A stretch of DNA of 64,000 nucleotides from positions 1-64,000 of the forward strand of contig NZ_KB899333.1 in NCBI RefSeq assembly GCF_000378165.1, written 5' to 3'. The stretch comes from Saccharibacter floricola DSM 15669. GTDB lineage: Bacteria > Pseudomonadota > Alphaproteobacteria > Acetobacterales > Acetobacteraceae. This document shows positions 4,343 through 20,099 of the stretch, in pieces. Position numbers and translations under genes: made by a program. Below the pieces are notes generated by a model. It was not told the origin of the DNA. It was given only the letters and a program-made list of their open reading frames with translations, and did no database searches. Within the stretch, counting starts at the first letter, position 1. The number at the start of each line of letters is the position of its first letter.

Positions 4343-5947
4343 ATGATGAAATTAATTCATAGCGCTATACCCGGCAAAGATACTTCTACATTAGTGGGAG
4401 ACTTTTTTGTTGAATTATGGAGGCGTTATACTGCTTTAAAAGAATTGATCCTATCCGTTACGGTGGAAGAAACAGGCTCAATTCTTTTAACTCAGTATAA
4501 AAACAATACTATTTTTTGTGAAAGAAAATATAATTTAACACCAGGTAAGCACATAATTCATCTGGGTTCTATTGATGATTTGGGGGATCGTCTTTCCTGT
4601 AGTTTATTAACCCCATTTAAAAAAGAGCATAGTTTTTTTTGGTCGACATTTTCTTCTGTTATTTTGGAACCAAAGATATCAGTAGTTATATGTACTTTTA
4701 ATCGTCCTGATAGTGTGATGGCTTTATTAGCAAAGCTTAAAAAACAAATAAATTTTTTGCATTCTATTATAATTATTAACCAAGGGGATAATAAAATAAA
4801 AATTTCAAAAGATAATTTTTCGGGTCAGAAAAAGATTTTAATTTTTGATCAAGAAAATTTTGGTGGAGCTGGAGGTTTTTCTCGAGGAATTATAGAAGCA
4901 TTGAAAGATATTGAGACTACTCATATCCAACTAATGGATGATGATGTCGAAATTGATGAAATCTTTTTTCAGCGTCTTCATTCTATTATTTCTTATTTAC
5001 ATCCTAATTATTGTATAGGGGGTGGAATGACAAGTTTAAGTGATAAAAAAAGTATTTTATCATTTGGACATAAGTTTAATTCATCGAAATGTTGTTCATA
5101 TTCTTTTGTCCCAGACACTAATGAGCGTCTATACGGCTCTATGGTTGAATATGCCCCAGTAGATTTTTGTGGGTGGTGGAGCTTTTGCTTTCCTAAAGTA
5201 GCGATAAAAAAAACTGGTCTTCCGCTTCCTCTCTTTATTAGGGGAGATGATTTAGAATTTGGTCTTCGCCTTTCTCGAGAGGGGTATCCGACCTTAATGT
5301 GGCCGGGTATTGAAGTTTCTCATCCAGATTTAAGTTCATATTCACAGCCGTGGCACCATTTTTATGATCGGCGTAATGCCTTCATTTGCGCGTATTTAAA
5401 TACTAGACGTATCCCCTGGAAGGGTATTTTCCGAGAATATAGAGGTATAATTAACTCTATCGTGCTTTACGATTATCTGAATGCAAGAATGGGTATAAAG
5501 TCAATAAGAGAGTTTTTTGTTTCTTATAAGAGAATAAAAGATTTTAACCTGAGAAAATATAAACATATTCCGGACGTGGAAAATTTAGATTTAGAATGTG
5601 ACAATAATTTTTTTGAAAAGAGACCTATAGTAAGAACGATGATGGTATTGATTAGGATTTTCAGAAACTTTTTCTCAAGGGAATATTATAGAGCGAACCA
5701 TAAAAGGCATTATATTTTTTCGTTTGAGGACTGGAATGTAGGAACAAAAATATATCCTGTGTGCTTATATATATATAAGGGAAGAGGTTTATTCTTTATG
5801 AGCCTAGATAAGAAAGAACATTTCTTGATATTGAAAGATCTCATAGGTTCATTATTTGTAATTTTTATTCATCATAGAAAGTTATCGGTAGATAATTTGC
5901 AGAAATTAACAACAATCTCATGGTGGGAAAAGAAACTTTCAAAGTGA
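4343..5947 (+). CDS. GlfT-like galactofuranosyltransferase (GT2), second of a pair
   Basis: A 534-residue paralogue of the preceding gene, starting 9 bp after its stop and surely co-transcribed. It keeps the same motif order: ICTFNRPD (about 115), NFGGAGGFSRG (about 172), MDDDVEID (about 198), RGDDLEFGLRL (about 301) and VSHPDL (about 324). The N-terminal beta region is about 60 residues shorter than in the partner. In mycobacteria GlfT1 and GlfT2 act one after the other as initiator and polymerase; two consecutive genes here allow, but do not prove, a similar division of labour. Codon use is very AT-rich. Two adjacent ATGs (4343 and 4346) are possible starts. Confidence 0.82.
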   Translation: MMKLIHSAIPGKDTSTLVGDFFVELWRRYTALKELILSVTVEETGSILLTQYKNNTIFCERKYNLTPGKHIIHLGSIDDLGDRLSCSLLTPFKKEHSFFWSTFSSVILEPKISVVICTFNRPDSVMALLAKLKKQINFLHSIIIINQGDNKIKISKDNFSGQKKILIFDQENFGGAGGFSRGIIEALKDIETTHIQLMDDDVEIDEIFFQRLHSIISYLHPNYCIGGGMTSLSDKKSILSFGHKFNSSKCCSYSFVPDTNERLYGSMVEYAPVDFCGWWSFCFPKVAIKKTGLPLPLFIRGDDLEFGLRLSREGYPTLMWPGIEVSHPDLSSYSQPWHHFYDRRNAFICAYLNTRRIPWKGIFREYRGIINSIVLYDYLNARMGIKSIREFFVSYKRIKDFNLRKYKHIPDVENLDLECDNNFFEKRPIVRTMMVLIRIFRNFFSREYYRANHKRHYIFSFEDWNVGTKIYPVCLYIYKGRGLFFMSLDKKEHFLILKDLIGSLFVIFIHHRKLSVDNLQKLTTISWWEKKLSK

Positions 5948-6055
5948 AATGATGTGTGATAATTCACTCAGGGAATGCATATTATTGAGGTTGTTATCAA
6001 ATATGTAAGAGAGTGCTAAATGGCATAGTTGTGGTTTTTAGAAAACGGCGAGTTT

Positions 6056-7516: not shown

Positions 7517-7804
7517 TGTTCCTACTGTATAATGATTAAAGACTATATATGCAGAACATGAGATATAATTTCCATTAGCTATTGATATTAGAATCATTTA
7601 TATTCTCACTTATGGACTCTTTAAGAAGGTTTCTAGATCTTGATCCCAAGAAGCCATTGAACAAGCTCAATGCATTAATATTTATAAAAAACGTATTTTT
7701 ATACAGTTTAAAGTATTGAAATATGGTATTTTAGTCAAAATAGTTAAATTAACATATCATATGGAAGTACTTCATGAAGACATTACGTTTTTTGTGAAGT
7801 ATAT
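7517..7804. other. AT-rich spacer at the left edge of the decayed island
   Basis: Very AT-rich stretch with no open frame of useful length and no recognisable gene remnant. It marks the change from the normal-composition manC gene to the island. I looked here for a partial copy of the tRNA-Arg 3' end (the expected far attachment site) and did not see one. Confidence 0.5.
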
Positions 7805-8569
7805 ATGCAATTCCCTAAAGGTAATAATTCTTATAATTTGGGAAATGGTATAAGCGCTGTAGTTGGTTTTTTTCTTCATAATGACCCATAGTTAAAGAAT
7901 CCAGAACAGACGAGAGAAGAGCGTGCTAAAGTCTAGCAATATTTTTGGGAGAATGTAAGAAAATATGATATTGGTATTAGATTAAAAACTCAAATATTGA
8001 CAAATATAGGCAATAAATTAGATACTGTTACGAAGAGGCTCATGATACATGGTGAGGCTATGCAGATTGTCTCCGGTCCCGTGTATGATCCCCATATTCA
8101 TTTCGAAGCACCGCCATTTGTTGCCGTTCCTTCAGAGATGGCGGAGTTTGTTGCTTAGTTTAATTTTATAGCTCCTACATTGACGGTACCCGCTGCAACG
8201 ATCAGCCGACACAAAAAAGCATATTATATCGAACTGAACCGGGCCAGTGAGACCAATTAGATAGACGATTGGATGATGTAGTTTGCTCATATTGTATTGA
8301 AGGCGTAGTCTCGGACATCGCAGCATGTCTACTTTCTTATTGAGAAGACCCGTCTTTTGGACCGTTTGAGTGGGTAGCTTAATGAACGGCAGGAGAAGGT
8401 TGTACTAAGAATGCTGGCGGAGGGCCCTGACGGTTTCCAAGGTGGGCTTAGTGCTCGTAATTATCGCTTCATCACAGGGGTCTCATCCGCCACGACCACG
8501 CGCGATCTGATGGGACGCGTTTCATTAGGGGTTTTGACACGGACAGGAAATAATCGTTATGCTCTGTAA
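7805..8569 (+). pseudogene. Fic/DUF4172-type protein remnant; seven in-frame TAG codons, FIC core missing
   Basis: From the ATG at 7805 one frame runs 254 codons to a TAA at 8567. Its only interruptions are TAG at 7889, 7934, 8156, 8258, 8279, 8306 and 8375; there is no internal TAA, TGA or frameshift. From residue 86 the reading is recognisable as a DUF4172/Fic protein: MQIVSGPVYDPHIHFEAPP, then VPSEMAEFVA, and a C-terminal winged-helix part LNERQEKVVLRMLAEG, GGLSARNYRFITGVS, TTRDLMGRVSLGVLTRTG. The catalytic HPFxxGNGR block that should lie between EMAEF and the C-terminal part is absent, so no AMPylation activity is possible. Several TAGs fall where I remember W or Q in the family (WFN, WFA, AQ, GQLNERQ). 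The first 85 codons are AT-rich and unrelated to the usual N-terminus. Confidence 0.8.
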
Positions 8570-8699: not shown

Positions 8700-9535
8700 C
8701 ATGCGCGGGCTGAAAATCGGGTGATTTGCGTTGCCCCGGATAATGTAAATTTTTCATGTTTAATGACAGACTTTTGCCTGACCCAGAGTTGATTCATTAT
8801 ACGCAGTGCTTCCCGCTCTACCGATATGAACCCATAGAAACACAGCATCCTGATGGTGATATGTTCCAGCAGGCAGGTTCCAATCAAGCTATTCCTGCTT
8901 ATGAACGAAAAAGTGCCATAACCCAGAGGAGATCGCGTATTTCCGTAAAGCATAACCAGAGGCGCGCTTTACGGAGGAGGATGTTTTTATTACATCTATA
9001 GCCTGCTTCATGCTTCAGATTATCGCAGCCGTTATGCTGCCAGCCTCTCCAAAGAACTCCCCCCATCCCTTGCGTGAAGAAGGAAGAAGACTTCCGGGCT
9101 TTCTCCAAAGCGGGGCGAGAGCTTTCTGGGCTCCATCTGCGCTATGAGGCGGTAGAGCCCTATTTCACCAGCATATCAAAAACAAGGCGGGCCTCACAGA
9201 GAAACAGCTCTATCGTGTCGAGAAGATAGCCTTTGCTAAAATCCGCAACAAGGATGGCAAATGCATCCCCGACAAAACTCATCTGATCTATAACGATCAT
9301 ATCGAGATCACAGGCATCACGTTGGAAGCCTATAAATATCAGGTCAATGGCAAGTCCGCCCTTGAGTGGATCATGGACTGCCAGTAGGTCAAAATAGACA
9401 AACGCTCTACTATCACCAACACCCCCAACTACTGAGTCCTCTCCAAAGCCAAAGACTCCGAATGGCTTCTCCTATTTTTCCTGAAGGTGTTGGAGATAAA
9501 AAAGCACTGGCCACGGTACCAAGAGGAATAATTAT
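8700..9535 (+). pseudogene. Type ISP restriction-modification enzyme, degraded C-terminal part
   Basis: Pieces in shifting plus-strand frames line up with the C-terminal target-recognition region of single-polypeptide (type ISP, LlaGI-like) restriction-modification helicases. In order: AENRVICVAPDN near 8705; FSCLMTD and then QCFPLYRYEP (about 8750-8830, in different frames); YERKSAITQ near 8900; a LHASDYRSRYAASLSKELPP stretch (about 9005-9060); KKEEDFRAFSKAGRELSGLH; YRVEKIAFAKIRNKDGK; and ITGITLEAYKYQVNGKSALEW near 9312. Several frameshifts plus an in-frame TAG (near 9385) and TGA (near 9433) destroy it. The nuclease, helicase and methyltransferase parts are absent from the window. It lies directly before the PARIS-like pair and is probably a remnant of the same defence island. 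Confidence 0.75.
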
Positions 9536-9639
9536 AGGGATTGATTATTAAAATAATACGTAAACATAATAAATTTTATTTTGAAAATGATAATATACTT
9601 ATTATATCCATTAATAGAATTATTGATAAGGAAATACAA

Positions 9640-11025
9640 ATGAAGATTGTTAAATTCAACGGATCTAATATCAATGGTCAGTCAGATATAGAAGTTAATT
9701 TCCACGAAGATATAACTTTTGTTGTTGGTATAAATGGAACAGGTAAAACTACAGTTTTGAACTTTATTGTTTCATTGCTTATGTTAAAGTTTGATTTTTT
9801 AGCGACTCAAAATTACAGTTTAGTGTCCATATGTATCAAGCATGAAGGAAAGATGACAACATTATGTTCTCAGAAGATAGAAGATGGAGCTTTGCTCTTT
9901 AAAAAGGGAAATAAAGAAGAAGTGTTGCAGATAAACGCTTTTGAATGGAATGATTTTGCTTCTTTTCGGGATGGAAAAGGAGCTGAAAGTAGTTTTTATG
10001 ATGAGCAACTTTTACAGCATGCTCATCATCCGATTATGTCGTTTATCAAGCAGCTTCCGACGCCTATGTATCTTGGTTTAAATAGACGAATTTTAAATAC
10101 AGGTGAGGACTCTGTCAGGCGTTATGGATATCGTAATCTTTTGGGAAGACCTAAACGTAGGAATGTGTTTTCTATACCCTTGTCTCAAGGGCTTGATGAC
10201 GCCCTTCCTTTTGCTTCTGTACAGTATCGAAGCGCTCAAAGAAGAAAAGAAGAACTTGATAAAAAATTCCGACAAGATTTGGTTTTGGACCTCATTGATT
10301 TGACCCCGTCAGATTTTTCTGGGAAACTAAGTGAGCCAAATGAAAATGATTTTGAAAAAATCAAGAAGGCGAAGGATAACTTGAGCAGGTTGCCTGGACT
10401 TTTGGGGGTCGATGCAGAAAAGATAAGAACAAAAACCGAACCACTTTTTAAGTTCGTGGAAAGTATACAAAGCGGTCTTTCTAAGAAGCATGGGCTATCT
10501 ACTGGGAAAAGCCCAAAAGATAGGAATAGAGCAGAGGTTGCGTTGAGGTGGGAGTTTAACAAAAATCTTATATATAAAATTGATTCTATCTCAAATCTTA
10601 TTTCGAAATATTCTGAAGATACAAACAATATATTTTCAGAATTGCAGAAATTTGAAAAAGATGTCAATTACTTCTTTAGTGATAGTGGAAAAGAAATACA
10701 TTTCAATAATGTCGGAGATATTATTTTTAAAATAAATGATTGCGAGGATGAAAATGATATAAAATTACTTTCATCGGGAGAGATACAGATTTTGTTGATA
10801 TTTGTTCATTTCCATTTCAATAAAAATATAGTAGAATCAAACATTTTTATTATTGATGAACCTGAGCTCTCTCTTCATGTAGAATGGCAAGAACGTTTTA
10901 TAGATCTTATGGTTGAGAAATGTGCTGATAATGATACGCAGTTTATTGCGGCCACTCATGCCCCTTCCATAATTTTAGATAGAACAGAAAAATGTGTTGA
11001 TCTTTCGCCGGGGCTAAATAAGTGA
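9640..11025 (+). CDS. ariA: AAA family ATPase, PARIS AriA-like
   Basis: ABC-type AAA ATPase of 461 residues. Walker A is GINGTGKTT with Lys36; the signature motif is LLSSGEIQ (about residue 378); Walker B is NIFIIDEPELSLH, with a downstream ATHAPSII switch histidine. The central helical insert is about 200 residues. Length, single ATPase domain without a fused TOPRIM, and a 4-bp overlap with a DUF4435 gene fit AriA of PARIS, which in known systems forms a multimeric scaffold that holds AriB and senses phage anti-restriction proteins such as Ocr. The frame opens at 9541, but the ATG at 9640 has AAGGA at proper spacing and begins at the natural start of the fold. AT-rich. Other ATPase-DUF4435 pairs exist, so the PARIS label is probable, not certain. 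Confidence 0.8.
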   Translation: MKIVKFNGSNINGQSDIEVNFHEDITFVVGINGTGKTTVLNFIVSLLMLKFDFLATQNYSLVSICIKHEGKMTTLCSQKIEDGALLFKKGNKEEVLQINAFEWNDFASFRDGKGAESSFYDEQLLQHAHHPIMSFIKQLPTPMYLGLNRRILNTGEDSVRRYGYRNLLGRPKRRNVFSIPLSQGLDDALPFASVQYRSAQRRKEELDKKFRQDLVLDLIDLTPSDFSGKLSEPNENDFEKIKKAKDNLSRLPGLLGVDAEKIRTKTEPLFKFVESIQSGLSKKHGLSTGKSPKDRNRAEVALRWEFNKNLIYKIDSISNLISKYSEDTNNIFSELQKFEKDVNYFFSDSGKEIHFNNVGDIIFKINDCEDENDIKLLSSGEIQILLIFVHFHFNKNIVESNIFIIDEPELSLHVEWQERFIDLMVEKCADNDTQFIAATHAPSIILDRTEKCVDLSPGLNK

Positions 11026-11864
11026 GTACAAGAACTATGTACCCTGCGAGGGCTGCGCAAGGTCTTGGTGAACTTAAAGCTCATAGTAATGAACTGGAAA
11101 TTTTTGTAGAAGATAAGAGTCAACGCCGCTTCTGGCTTTTGTTATTGCAGCGCTATGCGCCAAATATTAATTTGAAGATTGGCAGTATTAATCCGTTAGG
11201 AGGGCGAGATATGGTATTGGAAGCATGTAGATGTGACCAAACCAATAATAGTCGTAAACGCTTATATATAATAGATTCTGATTTTGATATAGTTCTTCAA
11301 AAAAGAAAAGAAAGGCTTAAACATCTCTATAAACTAAAACGATATTGTGTAGAAAATTACTTGGTCAGTCAGTCTAGTATTGATGGAGTTGCTCTAACTC
11401 TTGGTAAGAAAGATACGGATACGGATATAAATATCGAACGCTGGGTAAAGGATAATGAAGATATTCTGAAAGAGTTGTTTGTATGCTATGCTGTGGCATA
11501 TGATCTATCTTTTTCTGGAGAACCGACTGTGAGTTATGGATGTCACAGACTATTAGATAATAATAATTACTGCCGGGAAAAAGTCGAAGAAAGAATATTC
11601 TCTTTGTACGAGTCTATGAGAAATAAATTTGGGTCCGATTCTGTCGAGAAAACTAAGGAGGCTGTAAGAAAACAATCGGTGACTTTGAAAGCGATAGAGA
11701 TGTGTTCAGCAAAAGACTATATTATTCCAGTATTATTTAATATGTTGAAGCGTAGTATAGGTATAAATTCTGAAAAAAAAGTATTTATCCGAATTCTTGC
11801 TAGTTTTGCGGATGAAAAAATAGATCCTGAACTTACGCAGATACTTAACAAAGCGGCTAAATAG
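11022..11864 (+). CDS. ariB: DUF4435 protein, PARIS AriB-like TOPRIM nuclease
   Basis: Protein of 280 residues starting at a GTG that overlaps the ATPase stop (GTGA), so translation is coupled. It shows the DUF4435/TOPRIM pattern: IFVEDKSQRRFW with acidic Glu30-Asp31, then LYIIDSDFD with Asp85, Asp87 and Asp89, and the conserved KRYCVENYLV near residue 108. These acidic residues form the metal site of TOPRIM nucleases. In characterised PARIS systems AriB is released from AriA when the trigger appears and cleaves host tRNA, stopping growth. All acidic motif residues are present and the frame is uninterrupted, so the system looks functional. The 100 bases after it carry no clear terminator. Confidence 0.8.
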   Translation: MSTRTMYPARAAQGLGELKAHSNELEIFVEDKSQRRFWLLLLQRYAPNINLKIGSINPLGGRDMVLEACRCDQTNNSRKRLYIIDSDFDIVLQKRKERLKHLYKLKRYCVENYLVSQSSIDGVALTLGKKDTDTDINIERWVKDNEDILKELFVCYAVAYDLSFSGEPTVSYGCHRLLDNNNYCREKVEERIFSLYESMRNKFGSDSVEKTKEAVRKQSVTLKAIEMCSAKDYIIPVLFNMLKRSIGINSEKKVFIRILASFADEKIDPELTQILNKAAK

Positions 11865-11974
11865 CTTACTATTAATATAGTGTTATTCATTGATTATTTT
11901 TATTATGACATCGTGAATGTATGGTTTTAATTTTGTGAATTGGGTAGGTTTGCTCTTTTGCCCTTTTTGGAATG

Positions 11975-12460
11975 CTATTCCTCTTCTTTTATAATCATAT
12001 CTAGCTGTCTCCTTGTACTCTCCGATAATTTATGGTTATATGCGATGCTATTTATCCTAGCATATGTAGCAATCTCATCCTTGAATTCTTGCGAGCCGGT
12101 CAATTCAATAGCTGTCCATCTCTTGGTAACGGCTGAAAGCACGATTCCCAGTGCCGTGGCAGGTTGGATGGGGTCAGGGAGGCAGGTCATACGGTCCCCA
12201 TAATCCCTGAACTGCTCTACGTTTTTCAGTCTGATGCGGAGATGGTCTACCTCGACTCCAATCTATGCCGTGTGCCTGGCCCGCTCAATAAGCGTTTTAT
12301 GCTGATCGACAGGCCCTTCTCTGTCAAAGATCGTAATAGCGGTGTATCAGTATGGCCTGGTAAACGGTATTGCCTGATACAGGCTCCCTGACCTCATTCC
12401 GAGGTAGAAGATCGGCAAAATAGGCTGGATCAAGCTCCTGTTTCAGCCGCGCCCTTGCAA
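11975..12460 (-). pseudogene. Mobilization relaxase remnant (LPD7-type C-terminal region)
   Basis: On the minus strand an open piece from 12263 to the stop at 11975 reads VDHLRIRLKNVEQFRDYGDR, later ALGIVLSAVTKRWTAIELTG, SQEFKDEIATYARINS. The pattern of a DxG loop, then a helix ending KRW-x-x-IELTGSxEF, is that of the LPD7 domain found at the end of many plasmid and ICE relaxases. Upstream, after an in-frame TAG at 12264-12266, another frame reads ARARLKQELDPAYFADLLPR. The relaxase catalytic histidines and tyrosine are not visible. It lies downstream of a mobC remnant in the usual mobC-mobA order. Confidence 0.6.
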
Positions 12461-12929
12461 TCAATGACGTCTTTTCTGTGACGGGCTGCCGGAGCTTTCT
12501 GACCTGCTCCGTAAGAGGGCTTCTTCTGGACTCGTCAGCCTTTCTGCGTTGCTTATCTCCAGCTCCACAAACTGAACCAATGTGTCCTGCAGAAGCTGGA
12601 TAGGGTCGTTCTCCCGCGCCTCCGGTGCTTGGTTGAACAGGTTCAGCAGTTCTTTTGAAGCGTTGGCCGCCCGGTTGCCTTGATGAAGTGTTTTCTAGGA
12701 ATAGTCGATCAGCCGCTTTCCTGTGGTTGGCCCTTTCCTCTCGCTGGTGGGGGGAGGGGCGTTCTTGTAACGGGAGCCGGACGTAAGCCGGATGGTCTCG
12801 TTATCGTCAGGCTCGCCGAGCAGATGATGCAGCAGCCCGCCGGGGCCGGAAGCTGTTCTGAGGGCGTCACTATTGATGATTACGGGCGAGTGTTCCTGTC
12901 CGTGACGTTTGGGATGTCCGGATTAGTTT
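12461..12929. other. Degenerate DNA between relaxase and mobC remnants
   Basis: About 470 bp of normal GC with many stops on both strands. Its position suggests it is the former body of the relaxase gene after deletions and frameshifts, but I could not match a protein motif in it. Short open frames on the plus strand here look like shadows. Confidence 0.4.
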
Positions 12930-13267
12930 TTACAGCGTAATATGAGCGTTTCGGGCTGTCTGTCGCACCTCCCTCAAACAGGCTTCCACATCCTGTATCT
13001 GGCTCTGCTGGTAGCTGTAATGGGTGAGTTGGTTCAGGTTATTGCGGATCTGTTCCAGCTCCCTGTGCAATGCGGCAAGTTTCTTACCCAGCTCTCCACC
13101 TGCCCCGTCGGTTCTGGCGGCCCGATTGGCCAGGGTCTTCAGCCAGCTGGAAGATTTTATGGTCTGTTACTGAGAGACGCCACCCTCCATTGTCGGGCTT
13201 GTGCGGGCATGATGCGTATGCCCATGGTGCTGCTTCGTCTTGATAATTCTTTTATGCTATTCTTCAT
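12930..13267 (-). pseudogene. Plasmid mobilization protein MobC remnant
   Basis: The minus-strand frame ending at 12930 reads SSSWLKTLANRAARTDGAGG, then KLAALHRELEQIRNNLNQLT. The ELxxIxNNLNQL motif is the hallmark of the C-terminal helix of MobC relaxosome accessory proteins. Farther upstream, in another frame, an ATG at 13265-13267 begins a piece with GIRIMPAQARQWRVASLS, resembling the N-terminal ribbon of MobC-type proteins. A frameshift and a stop near 13170 separate the two parts, so it is dead. Confidence 0.6.
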
Positions 13268-13516: not shown

Positions 13517-14416
13517 TCAAGTATTGCAATATCGGAAAAAGACGGCCCCTGTTGTGCTTCCGGTCCGGCTATCTTGTGCCTGTAATTGTTGCACGGTTTC
13601 ATGAATTTTCCTGGGGCTGGCATGAGAGGAACGAACCAGAGATCGTTCATCCTTATGGCCAGTATAGCTTTTGGCAAGATTGATATTGTCCCATATCATG
13701 TTGAACGCTTCTGAACGGCGCGTGCCTTGATGAAAACAGAAGAGGATCAGAGCGGCGGCATTTCTAGTCGTCGGGCCTTTGAAATGATGGAGGATAAGGG
13801 GCAGCTCTTCATCACTAACACGACGGCTGCGGCGTTTGTCGGCATATTCAATGCTGCTGATATAACGGGAAGAGGCGTAGTTGATTAGATCAGTGTCATG
13901 CTCACGATTAAGGAAATTGATAGCGGTTTCGATTAGGCTAAGCCGCTTATTGATTGTGGCACCTTTTAACGGGATATTCTTTATCGCTTCACGAAAGGTG
14001 CGCACATCGGCTGCTTTCCTCTCGGTTAAGAGGCAGGAGAGGGATGGGAGCTTGCCGACTTGATTGAGCAATGTGCAGGTGTGACTGTTATAACTGGTTT
14101 TACCGGTATTTCTATGATGTTCCTGAAAGGCTTCCAACAGGTTCACCACGAACCAATCCTTAAAAGGAGAAGGGGCTAGTGGTTCGGAGGAAGGTATCAG
14201 ATGTAGAGAAGCTTCCTTGTCACGGTGCCATTGAATGGCGGTTTCAAGGTTGTCTAATATATCAATGCTTGCTGAGAAGGTTTTGGACACTCTCTGCCTA
14301 TGTGAGCTGAAGCGCACTTCAATGGAATGACGGCCTCGGAGGTGGTAGCCTTTATGGTTTTTCAAACGGTGATTGAGTTTTTCCAGGACGGACGTAGGTA
14401 GTAATCTGTTTCCCAT
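13517..14416 (-). pseudogene. Tyrosine recombinase (phage/island integrase), truncated and frameshifted
   Basis: Open frame of 299 residues with an N-terminal arm and SAM-like core-binding domain (about 60-170) and the first catalytic arginine in FHQGTRRSEAF (about 230). After INLAK the family pattern continues in another frame (AILAIRMNDLWFVPLMPAPG, which contains the usual VPL strand) and then returns at ETVQQLQAQDS, so two compensating shifts are likely. The protein ends about 60 residues later; the HxxR, H/W and catalytic tyrosine are missing and were not found in the adjacent 150 bp. It begins 126 bp from the 3' end of a tRNA-Arg gene, the classic place for an island integrase. Almost certainly inactive. 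Confidence 0.8.
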
Positions 14417-14541: not shown

Positions 14542-14618
<77 letters not shown>

Positions 14619-17342: not shown

Positions 17343-20099
17343 GTGGCGTCAGAGACAAAGCATCTGGTCTTAGTGGATGGGTCTGGATTTATCTTTAGAG
17401 CATTCTACGCCATCCCTGCGATGAGCAGCCCCGACGGGGTGCCTGTTAATGCGGTGTACGGCTTTACCAACATGCTTTCGCGCCTGCTAAAAGACCATGA
17501 AGGCCAGCCGATCGCTGTTATTTTTGACGCGGCGCGTAAGACGTTTCGTAACGATATTTACCCTGACTATAAGGCGCATCGTCCACCGCCACCGGAAGAT
17601 CTGCGTCCGCAATTTGATCTGATCCGTAAAGCAACGGAAGCGTTCGGAGTGCCAGCCATAGAGTTACCGGGATGGGAGGCAGACGACCTTCTGGCGACTT
17701 ATGCGCGCTTGACGGTGGAGCAAGGGGGAACATGCACGATCATCTCATCTGACAAGGATTTGATGCAGCTTGTGCGCCCCGGTGTCATGCTCAAAGACCC
17801 GTTGAAGCAGAAACCCATTGGGGAAGCCGAGGTTGAGAAGAAGTTTGGCGTCTCACCGGCTCAAGTGGTGGATGTGCAAGCTTTGATGGGCGACGCAACG
17901 GATAACGTGCCCGGCGTGCCGGGGATTGGCCCAAAAGGCGCGGCACAGCTAGTGCAGGAATATGGCAGTCTGGAAGCGATTTTAGACGCAGCGCCGTCGA
18001 TGAAGAAGTCCAAACGCCGTGAAAATTTGATTGAATATGCGGATTTAGCGCGTATTTCCAAACAGCTTGTGTTGTTGGCTGACCAAGTGGCGGTGCCGCG
18101 TCCTGTTGAGGAGTTGCATGTTCATCCAACGGAGGGGGAAAGCCTGCGTCATTGGCTGGAAAGTATGGGGTTCGGCTCCATTTTGCAGCGCATGGGCTTT
18201 ACCCGTAAAGCGCGCCACCCAGCGGCTGAACCTTCGCAAGATAATGTGGAGGAAGACGTCGCTTCTGCACCGCAAGCGGCGTTTGGGCCTTATGAGACGG
18301 TTATGACGACTGAAGCGCTGGAAAGTTGGATTGCGGCGGCTCGTAAGGCAGGGGCTGTTGCGGTGGATACCGAGACAACGGGGCTGAATGCCCGAACAGC
18401 CGAGCTAGTGGGTATTTCGTTAGCAACAGAAGCGGGGAAGGCCTGTTATATCCCCCTCTGTCATGAAGGCACGTTGGAGGCCCCCGTTGGTCAGCAGCTT
18501 GATGTAAAGGCTGTGTTAGAGACGCTCGCGCCCTTAATGAAGGATGAGAGCGTCCTCAAAATCTTTCAAAACGCGAAATATGACCTCACGATTTTTCGCC
18601 AAGCAGGATTGCGAGAGATTGCCCCTGTTGATGACACGATGTTGCTTTCCTACGTGCAATCGGCTGGTGCGCATGGGCAAGGGATGGACGAGCTTTCCCG
18701 GCGTCATCTTGGTCATACGCCGATCACCTATGACGAGGTGACAGGGAAAGGGCGCAATCGTATCGCTTTTACGCATGTTACCCTTGAGCGCGCAACGGCG
18801 TATGCGGCGGAAGATGCCGATGTGACGTTGCGGCTTTGGCAGGTTCTGCGGGCATCATTGCCGCATCAACAGGCCGTGGCGTTGTATGAGGAGATGGAAC
18901 GCCCTCTTATATCTGTTCTGGCGGATATGGAAGAGGTGGGCATTGGCGTTGATGCTGAGGAATTGCGCCGTCTGTCGGACGATTTTGCCCGGCGTATGCG
19001 CGAGATGGAAAGTGCGATTTATGATCGCGCAGGGCGAGAGTTTAATATTGGTTCGCCCAAGCAGTTGGGTGAAATCTTGTTTGACGAGATGGGCCTCCCC
19101 GGTGGGAAGCGCACCAAAACCGGCGCATGGGGCACGGATTCCAGCGTATTGGACGGGTTGGCAGAGAAGGGCCATGATCTGCCCACGCGTATTCTCAACT
19201 GGCGTCAGCTGGCCAAGCTGAAATCAACCTATGCGGATGCGCTGGTGAAGTTGATGGATACTAAGACGCACCGTATCCACACGACGTTCCAAATGGCGGT
19301 GACGACGACGGGGCGTCTCTCGTCCAATGAGCCGAATTTGCAGAATATTCCGATCCGCACAGAGGAGGGCGCGCGTATTCGTCAGGCGTTTAAAGCGGCG
19401 AAGGGGCGGAAGATCGTTTCCGCCGATTATAGCCAAATTGAACTACGTCTCTTAGCGCATGTGGCTCAGATTGAACCGCTCTTGGAAGCGTTTCGCTTAG
19501 GGCAGGATATTCATGCACGCACCGCGTCTGAAGTGTTTGGTGTGCCGTTGGAAGGGATGGACGCGCTCACGCGTCGCCGGGCGAAGGCCATTAATTTCGG
19601 TATTATTTACGGTATTTCCGCTTATGGGCTTGCGCGTCAGTTGCAAGTGCCACAATCGGAGGCGAAGCGCTATATTGAGGCTTATTTTGAGCGCTATCCC
19701 GGAATTTTGGCCTATATGGAAGGCGTGAAAGAAGAAGCACGAGACCAAGGCTATGTGCTGACGCCGTTTGGGCGCCGTTGTTATGTGCCTGAAATTAAGG
19801 CAAAGCAGGCAGCACGTCGTTCTTATGCCGAGCGCCAAGCGATTAATGCCCCGCTTCAAGGAGGGGCTGCGGATATCATCAAGAAAGCGATGGTGCGCCT
19901 TGCGCAGGTCTTACCACAGAGTGGTCTTCAGGCCCGTATGATGCTGCAAGTACATGATGAGCTTCTTTTTGACGTTGCTGATGAAGATGCAGAAAAGCTT
20001 GCCGCACTTGTGCAGCAGGAAATGGAACAGGCTGCCACGCTGGATGTGGCATTGTCGGTTGAAACAGGAATAGGACAAAGCTGGTCAGATGCGCACTAA
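17343..20099 (+). CDS. polA: DNA polymerase I
   Basis: Full-length 918-residue enzyme with all three activities predicted. The 5' nuclease domain (1-290) has LVDGSGFIFRAFYA, EADDLLAT and DNVPGVPGIGPKGA. The 3'-5' exonuclease domain (about 310-510) keeps the acidic pair in VAVDTETTG, a third Asp in QNAKYDLTI and the AEDADVT motif, so proofreading should be active. The polymerase domain has motif A (SADYSQIELRLLAH), motif B (RRRAKAINFGIIYGIS) and motif C (LQVHDELLFDV). The GTG start is preceded by a GGGGGA ribosome-binding site. The stop overlaps the ATG of the next gene by 11 bp, so polA, the SCO-like gene and the HAD gene probably form one transcript. Confidence 0.98.
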   Translation: MASETKHLVLVDGSGFIFRAFYAIPAMSSPDGVPVNAVYGFTNMLSRLLKDHEGQPIAVIFDAARKTFRNDIYPDYKAHRPPPPEDLRPQFDLIRKATEAFGVPAIELPGWEADDLLATYARLTVEQGGTCTIISSDKDLMQLVRPGVMLKDPLKQKPIGEAEVEKKFGVSPAQVVDVQALMGDATDNVPGVPGIGPKGAAQLVQEYGSLEAILDAAPSMKKSKRRENLIEYADLARISKQLVLLADQVAVPRPVEELHVHPTEGESLRHWLESMGFGSILQRMGFTRKARHPAAEPSQDNVEEDVASAPQAAFGPYETVMTTEALESWIAAARKAGAVAVDTETTGLNARTAELVGISLATEAGKACYIPLCHEGTLEAPVGQQLDVKAVLETLAPLMKDESVLKIFQNAKYDLTIFRQAGLREIAPVDDTMLLSYVQSAGAHGQGMDELSRRHLGHTPITYDEVTGKGRNRIAFTHVTLERATAYAAEDADVTLRLWQVLRASLPHQQAVALYEEMERPLISVLADMEEVGIGVDAEELRRLSDDFARRMREMESAIYDRAGREFNIGSPKQLGEILFDEMGLPGGKRTKTGAWGTDSSVLDGLAEKGHDLPTRILNWRQLAKLKSTYADALVKLMDTKTHRIHTTFQMAVTTTGRLSSNEPNLQNIPIRTEEGARIRQAFKAAKGRKIVSADYSQIELRLLAHVAQIEPLLEAFRLGQDIHARTASEVFGVPLEGMDALTRRRAKAINFGIIYGISAYGLARQLQVPQSEAKRYIEAYFERYPGILAYMEGVKEEARDQGYVLTPFGRRCYVPEIKAKQAARRSYAERQAINAPLQGGAADIIKKAMVRLAQVLPQSGLQARMMLQVHDELLFDVADEDAEKLAALVQQEMEQAATLDVALSVETGIGQSWSDAH

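Follow-up and report, generated by a model that had tools for sequence, protein, structure and literature searches.

The window, which comprises 64,000 nucleotides of the genome of Saccharibacter floricola DSM 15669, contains two overlapping genes that, by all tests applied to their sequences and structural models, constitute a complete, divergent PARIS system (ariA and ariB). This pair is the only unbroken cargo of a ruined mobile island at a tRNA-Arg gene. Taken as a whole, the data are very probably best explained by a PARIS pair with an E. coli-like mechanism, carried as cargo of the decayed tRNA-Arg island. The pair and its immediate surroundings comprise the following features:

9640–11025, plus strand: ariA, 461-aa ABC/OLD-type ATPase, predicted sensor (PADLOC, Pfam, fold)
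11022–11864, plus strand: ariB, 280-aa DUF4435/Toprim protein, predicted effector nuclease (Pfam, PADLOC, fold, invariant residues)
9628–9634, plus strand: candidate ribosome-binding site AAGGAAA 5′ of ariA, read from the sequence
11942–11963, plus strand: hairpin with a trailing T run, resembling a terminator, past ariB (consensus scan, weak)

Both reading frames are open and complete, ariA from an ATG at 9640 to the stop at 11025 (461 codons) and ariB from a GTG at 11022 to the stop at 11864 (280 codons). Because homologues begin at the same methionine, the ATG at 9640 and not the TTG at 9541 was taken as the start of ariA. The genes overlap by 4 bases, so that the GTG start of ariB, which is backed by homologue alignments, lies within the end of ariA. 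The consensus scan revealed four terminator-like hairpins in the region, compared to 1.2 expected, and no promoter clearly above chance; the latter counts against the preferred explanation.

AriA contains the Walker A motif GINGTGKT, the signature LLSSGE, the Walker B motif FIIDEPELSLH and the H-loop ATHAP. 27 of its 28 invariant columns are retained; the exception is S441A, by which the serine of the H-loop motif THSP is replaced by alanine. P49L is a further change at a nearly invariant site; both substitutions, like the long AriA branch described below, count against the preferred explanation. In AriB, all eight columns that are invariant across 24 homologues are retained (V29, E30, D31, V65, D85, D87, E111, and K231), including the Toprim acidic residues E30, D85, D87, and E111. 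The first-pass annotation had described an ATPase with Walker A, LSSGE signature and Walker B and an overlapping DUF4435/TOPRIM gene with its acidic motif residues; both descriptions hold, with S441A to be added for the former.

The published detection rule for PARIS (PMC9122126) combines adjacent genes with at least 32 bits for AAA_15, at least 27 bits for AAA_21 and at least 27 bits for DUF4435. AriA reached 76.6 bits (AAA_15) and 70.1 bits (AAA_21), AriB 81.5 bits (DUF4435), and the genes are adjacent and overlap. With PADLOC, the first protein was assigned to AriA (1.3e-30, compared to 4.4e-20 for the best PtuA model) and the second to AriB (5.6e-22). A profile of AriA homologues searched against the PDB found E. 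coli AriA on top with an E-value of 1.6e-34, followed by the next family at 7.6e-18. The search of the PDB with the AriB sequence resulted in nothing useful, and for this reason AriB was assigned via its fold.

AlphaFold models were built on alignments of relatives, without the sequence of Sinorhizobium phage Aussie, and reached a pLDDT of 93 for AriB and 83 for AriA. The AriB model was superimposed on E. coli AriB (8ux9_A) over 239 of 280 residues (Z 12.4, rmsd 4.3), and the next family, OLD, followed at Z 6.3. For AriA, the best match was E. coli AriA (8v45; Z 26.1, rmsd 3.8, 353 residues), followed by PtuA at Z 18.8. At only 11–18% in these structural alignments, the sequence identity to E. 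coli AriA and AriB counts against the preferred explanation. The order of ariA followed by ariB is retained in the relatives examined.

As Pfam, PADLOC and the predicted folds favour AriA/AriB, the pair is assigned to PARIS; it is not another ATPase-DUF4435 system. It is very improbable that a different OLD-like system is present, in which a Septu PtuA-type ATPase or a Gabija-like protein would work with a DUF4435 partner on DNA and not on tRNA. AriA matches PtuA models too (4e-20) and the AriB fold distantly resembles the Toprim domains of OLD and Gabija (Z 3–6), but AriA/AriB come out on top by every method with clear gaps. Furthermore, neither an HNH PtuB nor a GajB partner was found among the ORFs around the pair, where the partner is the DUF4435 protein. 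The PARIS-like identity suggested earlier is thus borne out by PADLOC, by the PDB sequence profile (for AriA) and by fold, and no other ATPase-DUF4435 family ranked ahead.

Around the PARIS pair, the following remnants and the probable integration site were identified:

7606–8053, plus strand: LA2681-like HEPN gene, decayed and shortened (alignment; Pfam HEPN_LA2681 on the intact copy of a congener)
8057–8560, plus strand: remnant of a Fic family gene (72–75% DNA identity to intact Fic genes; in-frame stops)
8982–9540, plus strand: type ISP restriction-modification remnant, reduced to the C-terminal domain of the enzyme, with frameshifts and a stop (Type_ISP_C)
11975–12190, minus strand: C-terminal relaxase remnant (LPD7, 29.5 bits, cut-off 27)
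approximately 12900–13060, minus strand: possible mobC remnant (MobC, 14.8 bits, under the cut-off of 23.2; weak)
13517–14416, minus strand: truncated tyrosine integrase adjoining the tRNA gene (Phage_integrase positions 2–55 of 172, 19.5 bits, under the Pfam cut-off)
14542–14618, minus strand: tRNA-Arg (CCG), probable integration site, with its 3′ end facing the island (ARAGORN, Rfam)

Pieces of Type_ISP_C are distributed over three frames (8982–9062, 9056–9190, and 9154–9432, the last with an internal TAG), and the remnant shares 75% DNA identity with the intact gene of a relative, which codes for 1758 aa. Most of the catalytic domain of the integrase is missing. The pseudogenisation of the neighbouring genes, as claimed in the first-pass annotation, could be verified for the Fic, type ISP, relaxase and integrase remnants, whereas mobC was detected only weakly. 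The decayed stretch additionally includes the LA2681-type HEPN remnant (approximately 7600–8053), which was missing from the earlier list. An intact copy of this HEPN gene is located between manC and tRNA-Arg in a congener (G001, 17460–18995). In this congener, the HEPN gene and tRNA-Arg are not separated by an island, so that the site is variable. A repeat of the tRNA-Arg 3′ end (att) flanking the island was not found, and no complete, undecayed island was detected in 299 Acetobacteraceae genomes or in plasmids.

The pair and its flanks differ clearly in the number of disabling lesions. In the three flanking remnants combined, 14 frameshifts and 9 stops were counted in 1657 aligned bases, corresponding to about 14 per kb, a rough rate since the references are 72–78% identical and some gaps lie within poorly aligned stretches. 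At this rate around 31 stops or frameshifts would be expected in the 2.2 kb of the pair, but there are none; even at one tenth of the flank rate, the chance of this result is about 5%. The contrast is not due to chance. Because the flanks are rich in lesions and the pair is free of them, the pair was either protected by selection or arrived later, and the earlier statement of selection or late arrival is retained in this form. The low G + C content of the pair (0.34–0.36, compared to 0.50 for the window) is compatible with either.

It is possible, albeit unlikely, that the pair is a PARIS-like relic heading for loss, with open frames and relaxed function, which owes its survival solely to its younger age compared to the neighbouring genes. 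The G + C content fits recent foreign DNA, and S441A points in the same direction. In the AriA tree, the branch of the window protein has a length of 0.84, compared to 0.27 and 0.37 for its sisters (2–3-fold), and 15 of 95 clade-conserved sites are changed compared to 2–8 in relatives, the listed changes being mostly conservative. The AriB branch is longer as well (1.49 compared to 0.44 and 0.78), but 6 of 51 changed clade-conserved sites are inside the range of the relatives. The relic reading is further opposed by the absence of stops and frameshifts and by the intact Toprim and Walker residues. As the AriA branch is long and bears a few odd substitutions, strong selection is unproven. Relaxed selection had been named in the first-pass annotation as a point that would speak against its reading: no disabling change occurred and the catalytic motifs are intact, but the AriA lineage evolved moderately fast.

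The closest relative found is an AriA-AriB pair of Sinorhizobium phage Aussie (OR786373.1, 566–2775) with 48% and 40% identity, respectively. It is labelled hypothetical and is located at the left end of the phage, adjoining the c repressor, Ner and the transposase. Another nearest relative is a pair in a Cypionkella genome, and in the AriA tree the window protein groups with those of phage Aussie and Cypionkella (support 99/97). AriB could be detected in four of the 299 Acetobacteraceae genomes sampled, including the host, or in three of the 298 others, namely an uncultured Acetobacteraceae bacterium, an uncultured Neokomagataea and Acidiphilium. The pair from Neokomagataea, an acetic acid bacterium, is more distant from the one described here. 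Owing to these related pairs in three other Acetobacteraceae genomes, the system is not the first in acetic acid bacteria. It had been proposed as an example worth documenting; it is a complete PARIS, but its novelty is softened by the pair of the uncultured Neokomagataea.

For comparison, about 5% of prokaryotic genomes were reported to carry PARIS (PMC9122126). A tblastn search with AriB against plasmids resulted in no match, and the AriA matches there were distant. Scans of genome and viral contigs with single sequences found no AriB relative, whereas alignment-based scans did find relatives. In Hyphomicrobium sp. CS1BSMeth3 (4432–5983), AriA is split across two frames and AriB is open, which represents either a decaying PARIS or a sequencing error.

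PARIS is described as an alarm system that acts when phages block restriction (PMC9122126) and that would then shut down the cell, and tRNA cleavage by E. coli AriB was demonstrated experimentally (PMC12409363). By analogy to E. coli PARIS, AriA would probably form an ATPase assembly, presumably a hexamer, that keeps the Toprim protein AriB inactive, and would detect anti-restriction or similar proteins of phages. Once released by the trigger, AriB would dimerise and cut selected tRNAs in the anticodon stem, so that translation and phage growth would stop. The pair probably entered as cargo of a mobilisable island targeting tRNA-Arg, which has since decayed around it. Elsewhere in the host, two restriction genes are intact, namely a type ISP frame of 1764 aa (C13:1045–2226) and an HsdR-type frame (type I restriction) of 1101 aa (C4:224149–224805). 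As these are retained, a back-up role for PARIS is plausible, though the restriction gene of the island is dead.

E. coli AriB cuts tRNA-Lys(UUU) at UAAUC|A41, and A41C substantially inhibits cutting; whether different PARIS systems share their tRNA targets is posed as an open question in PMC12409363. In the host, UAAUC is followed by G (G41) in tRNA-Lys(UUU) and in tRNA-Asn(GUU), and by A41, the base present in the target of E. coli AriB, in tRNA-Lys(CUU). The search pattern applied did not recover a tRNA-Thr(UGU). The G41 of tRNA-Lys(UUU), compared to the A41 preferred by E. coli AriB, counts against the preferred explanation; either the AriB described here accepts G41 or it acts mainly on another target. 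Given this difference at the cut site of the host tRNA-Lys(UUU), the system offers a natural test of the conservation of PARIS tRNA targets.

A more specific reading, which is tentative and rather improbable, is that the pair belongs to a divergent alphaproteobacterial PARIS branch that it shares with the Mu-like phage Aussie. Its AriB would have a tRNA specificity unlike that of E. coli, e.g., accept G41 or prefer tRNA-Lys(CUU), and the pair would have been kept by selection after the restriction partner on the island had decayed. With the preferred reading, a PARIS pair as cargo of a decayed island, a complete PARIS is documented in an acetic acid bacterium, adjoining the remnants of the type of restriction enzyme for which PARIS is regarded as a back-up, and it is linked to an unannotated phage-borne pair.

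Compared to known systems, the Septu and retron PtuA ATPases belong to the same ATPase superfamily as AriA, but they match more weakly by profile and fold, and their HNH partner PtuB is absent here. The phage Aussie pair has adjacent genes and the same motifs; it differs in being part of a Mu-like phage genome and not of a decayed island, and the phage AriA gene has a G + C content of about 51%. E. coli B185 PARIS (PDB 8ux9, 8v45–8v49) differs in host and island, in the A41 of tRNA-Lys(UUU) compared to G41 in the host, and in sequence, with about 18% (AriA) and 12% (AriB) identity in structural alignments. Nevertheless, gene content and gene order agree, with an ABC ATPase followed by a DUF4435 Toprim protein; the catalytic residues are conserved, and the predicted folds correspond to those of E. 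coli along almost the entire proteins. Apart from the island context, the tie to the phage and the tRNA question, the pair corresponds to an ordinary PARIS.
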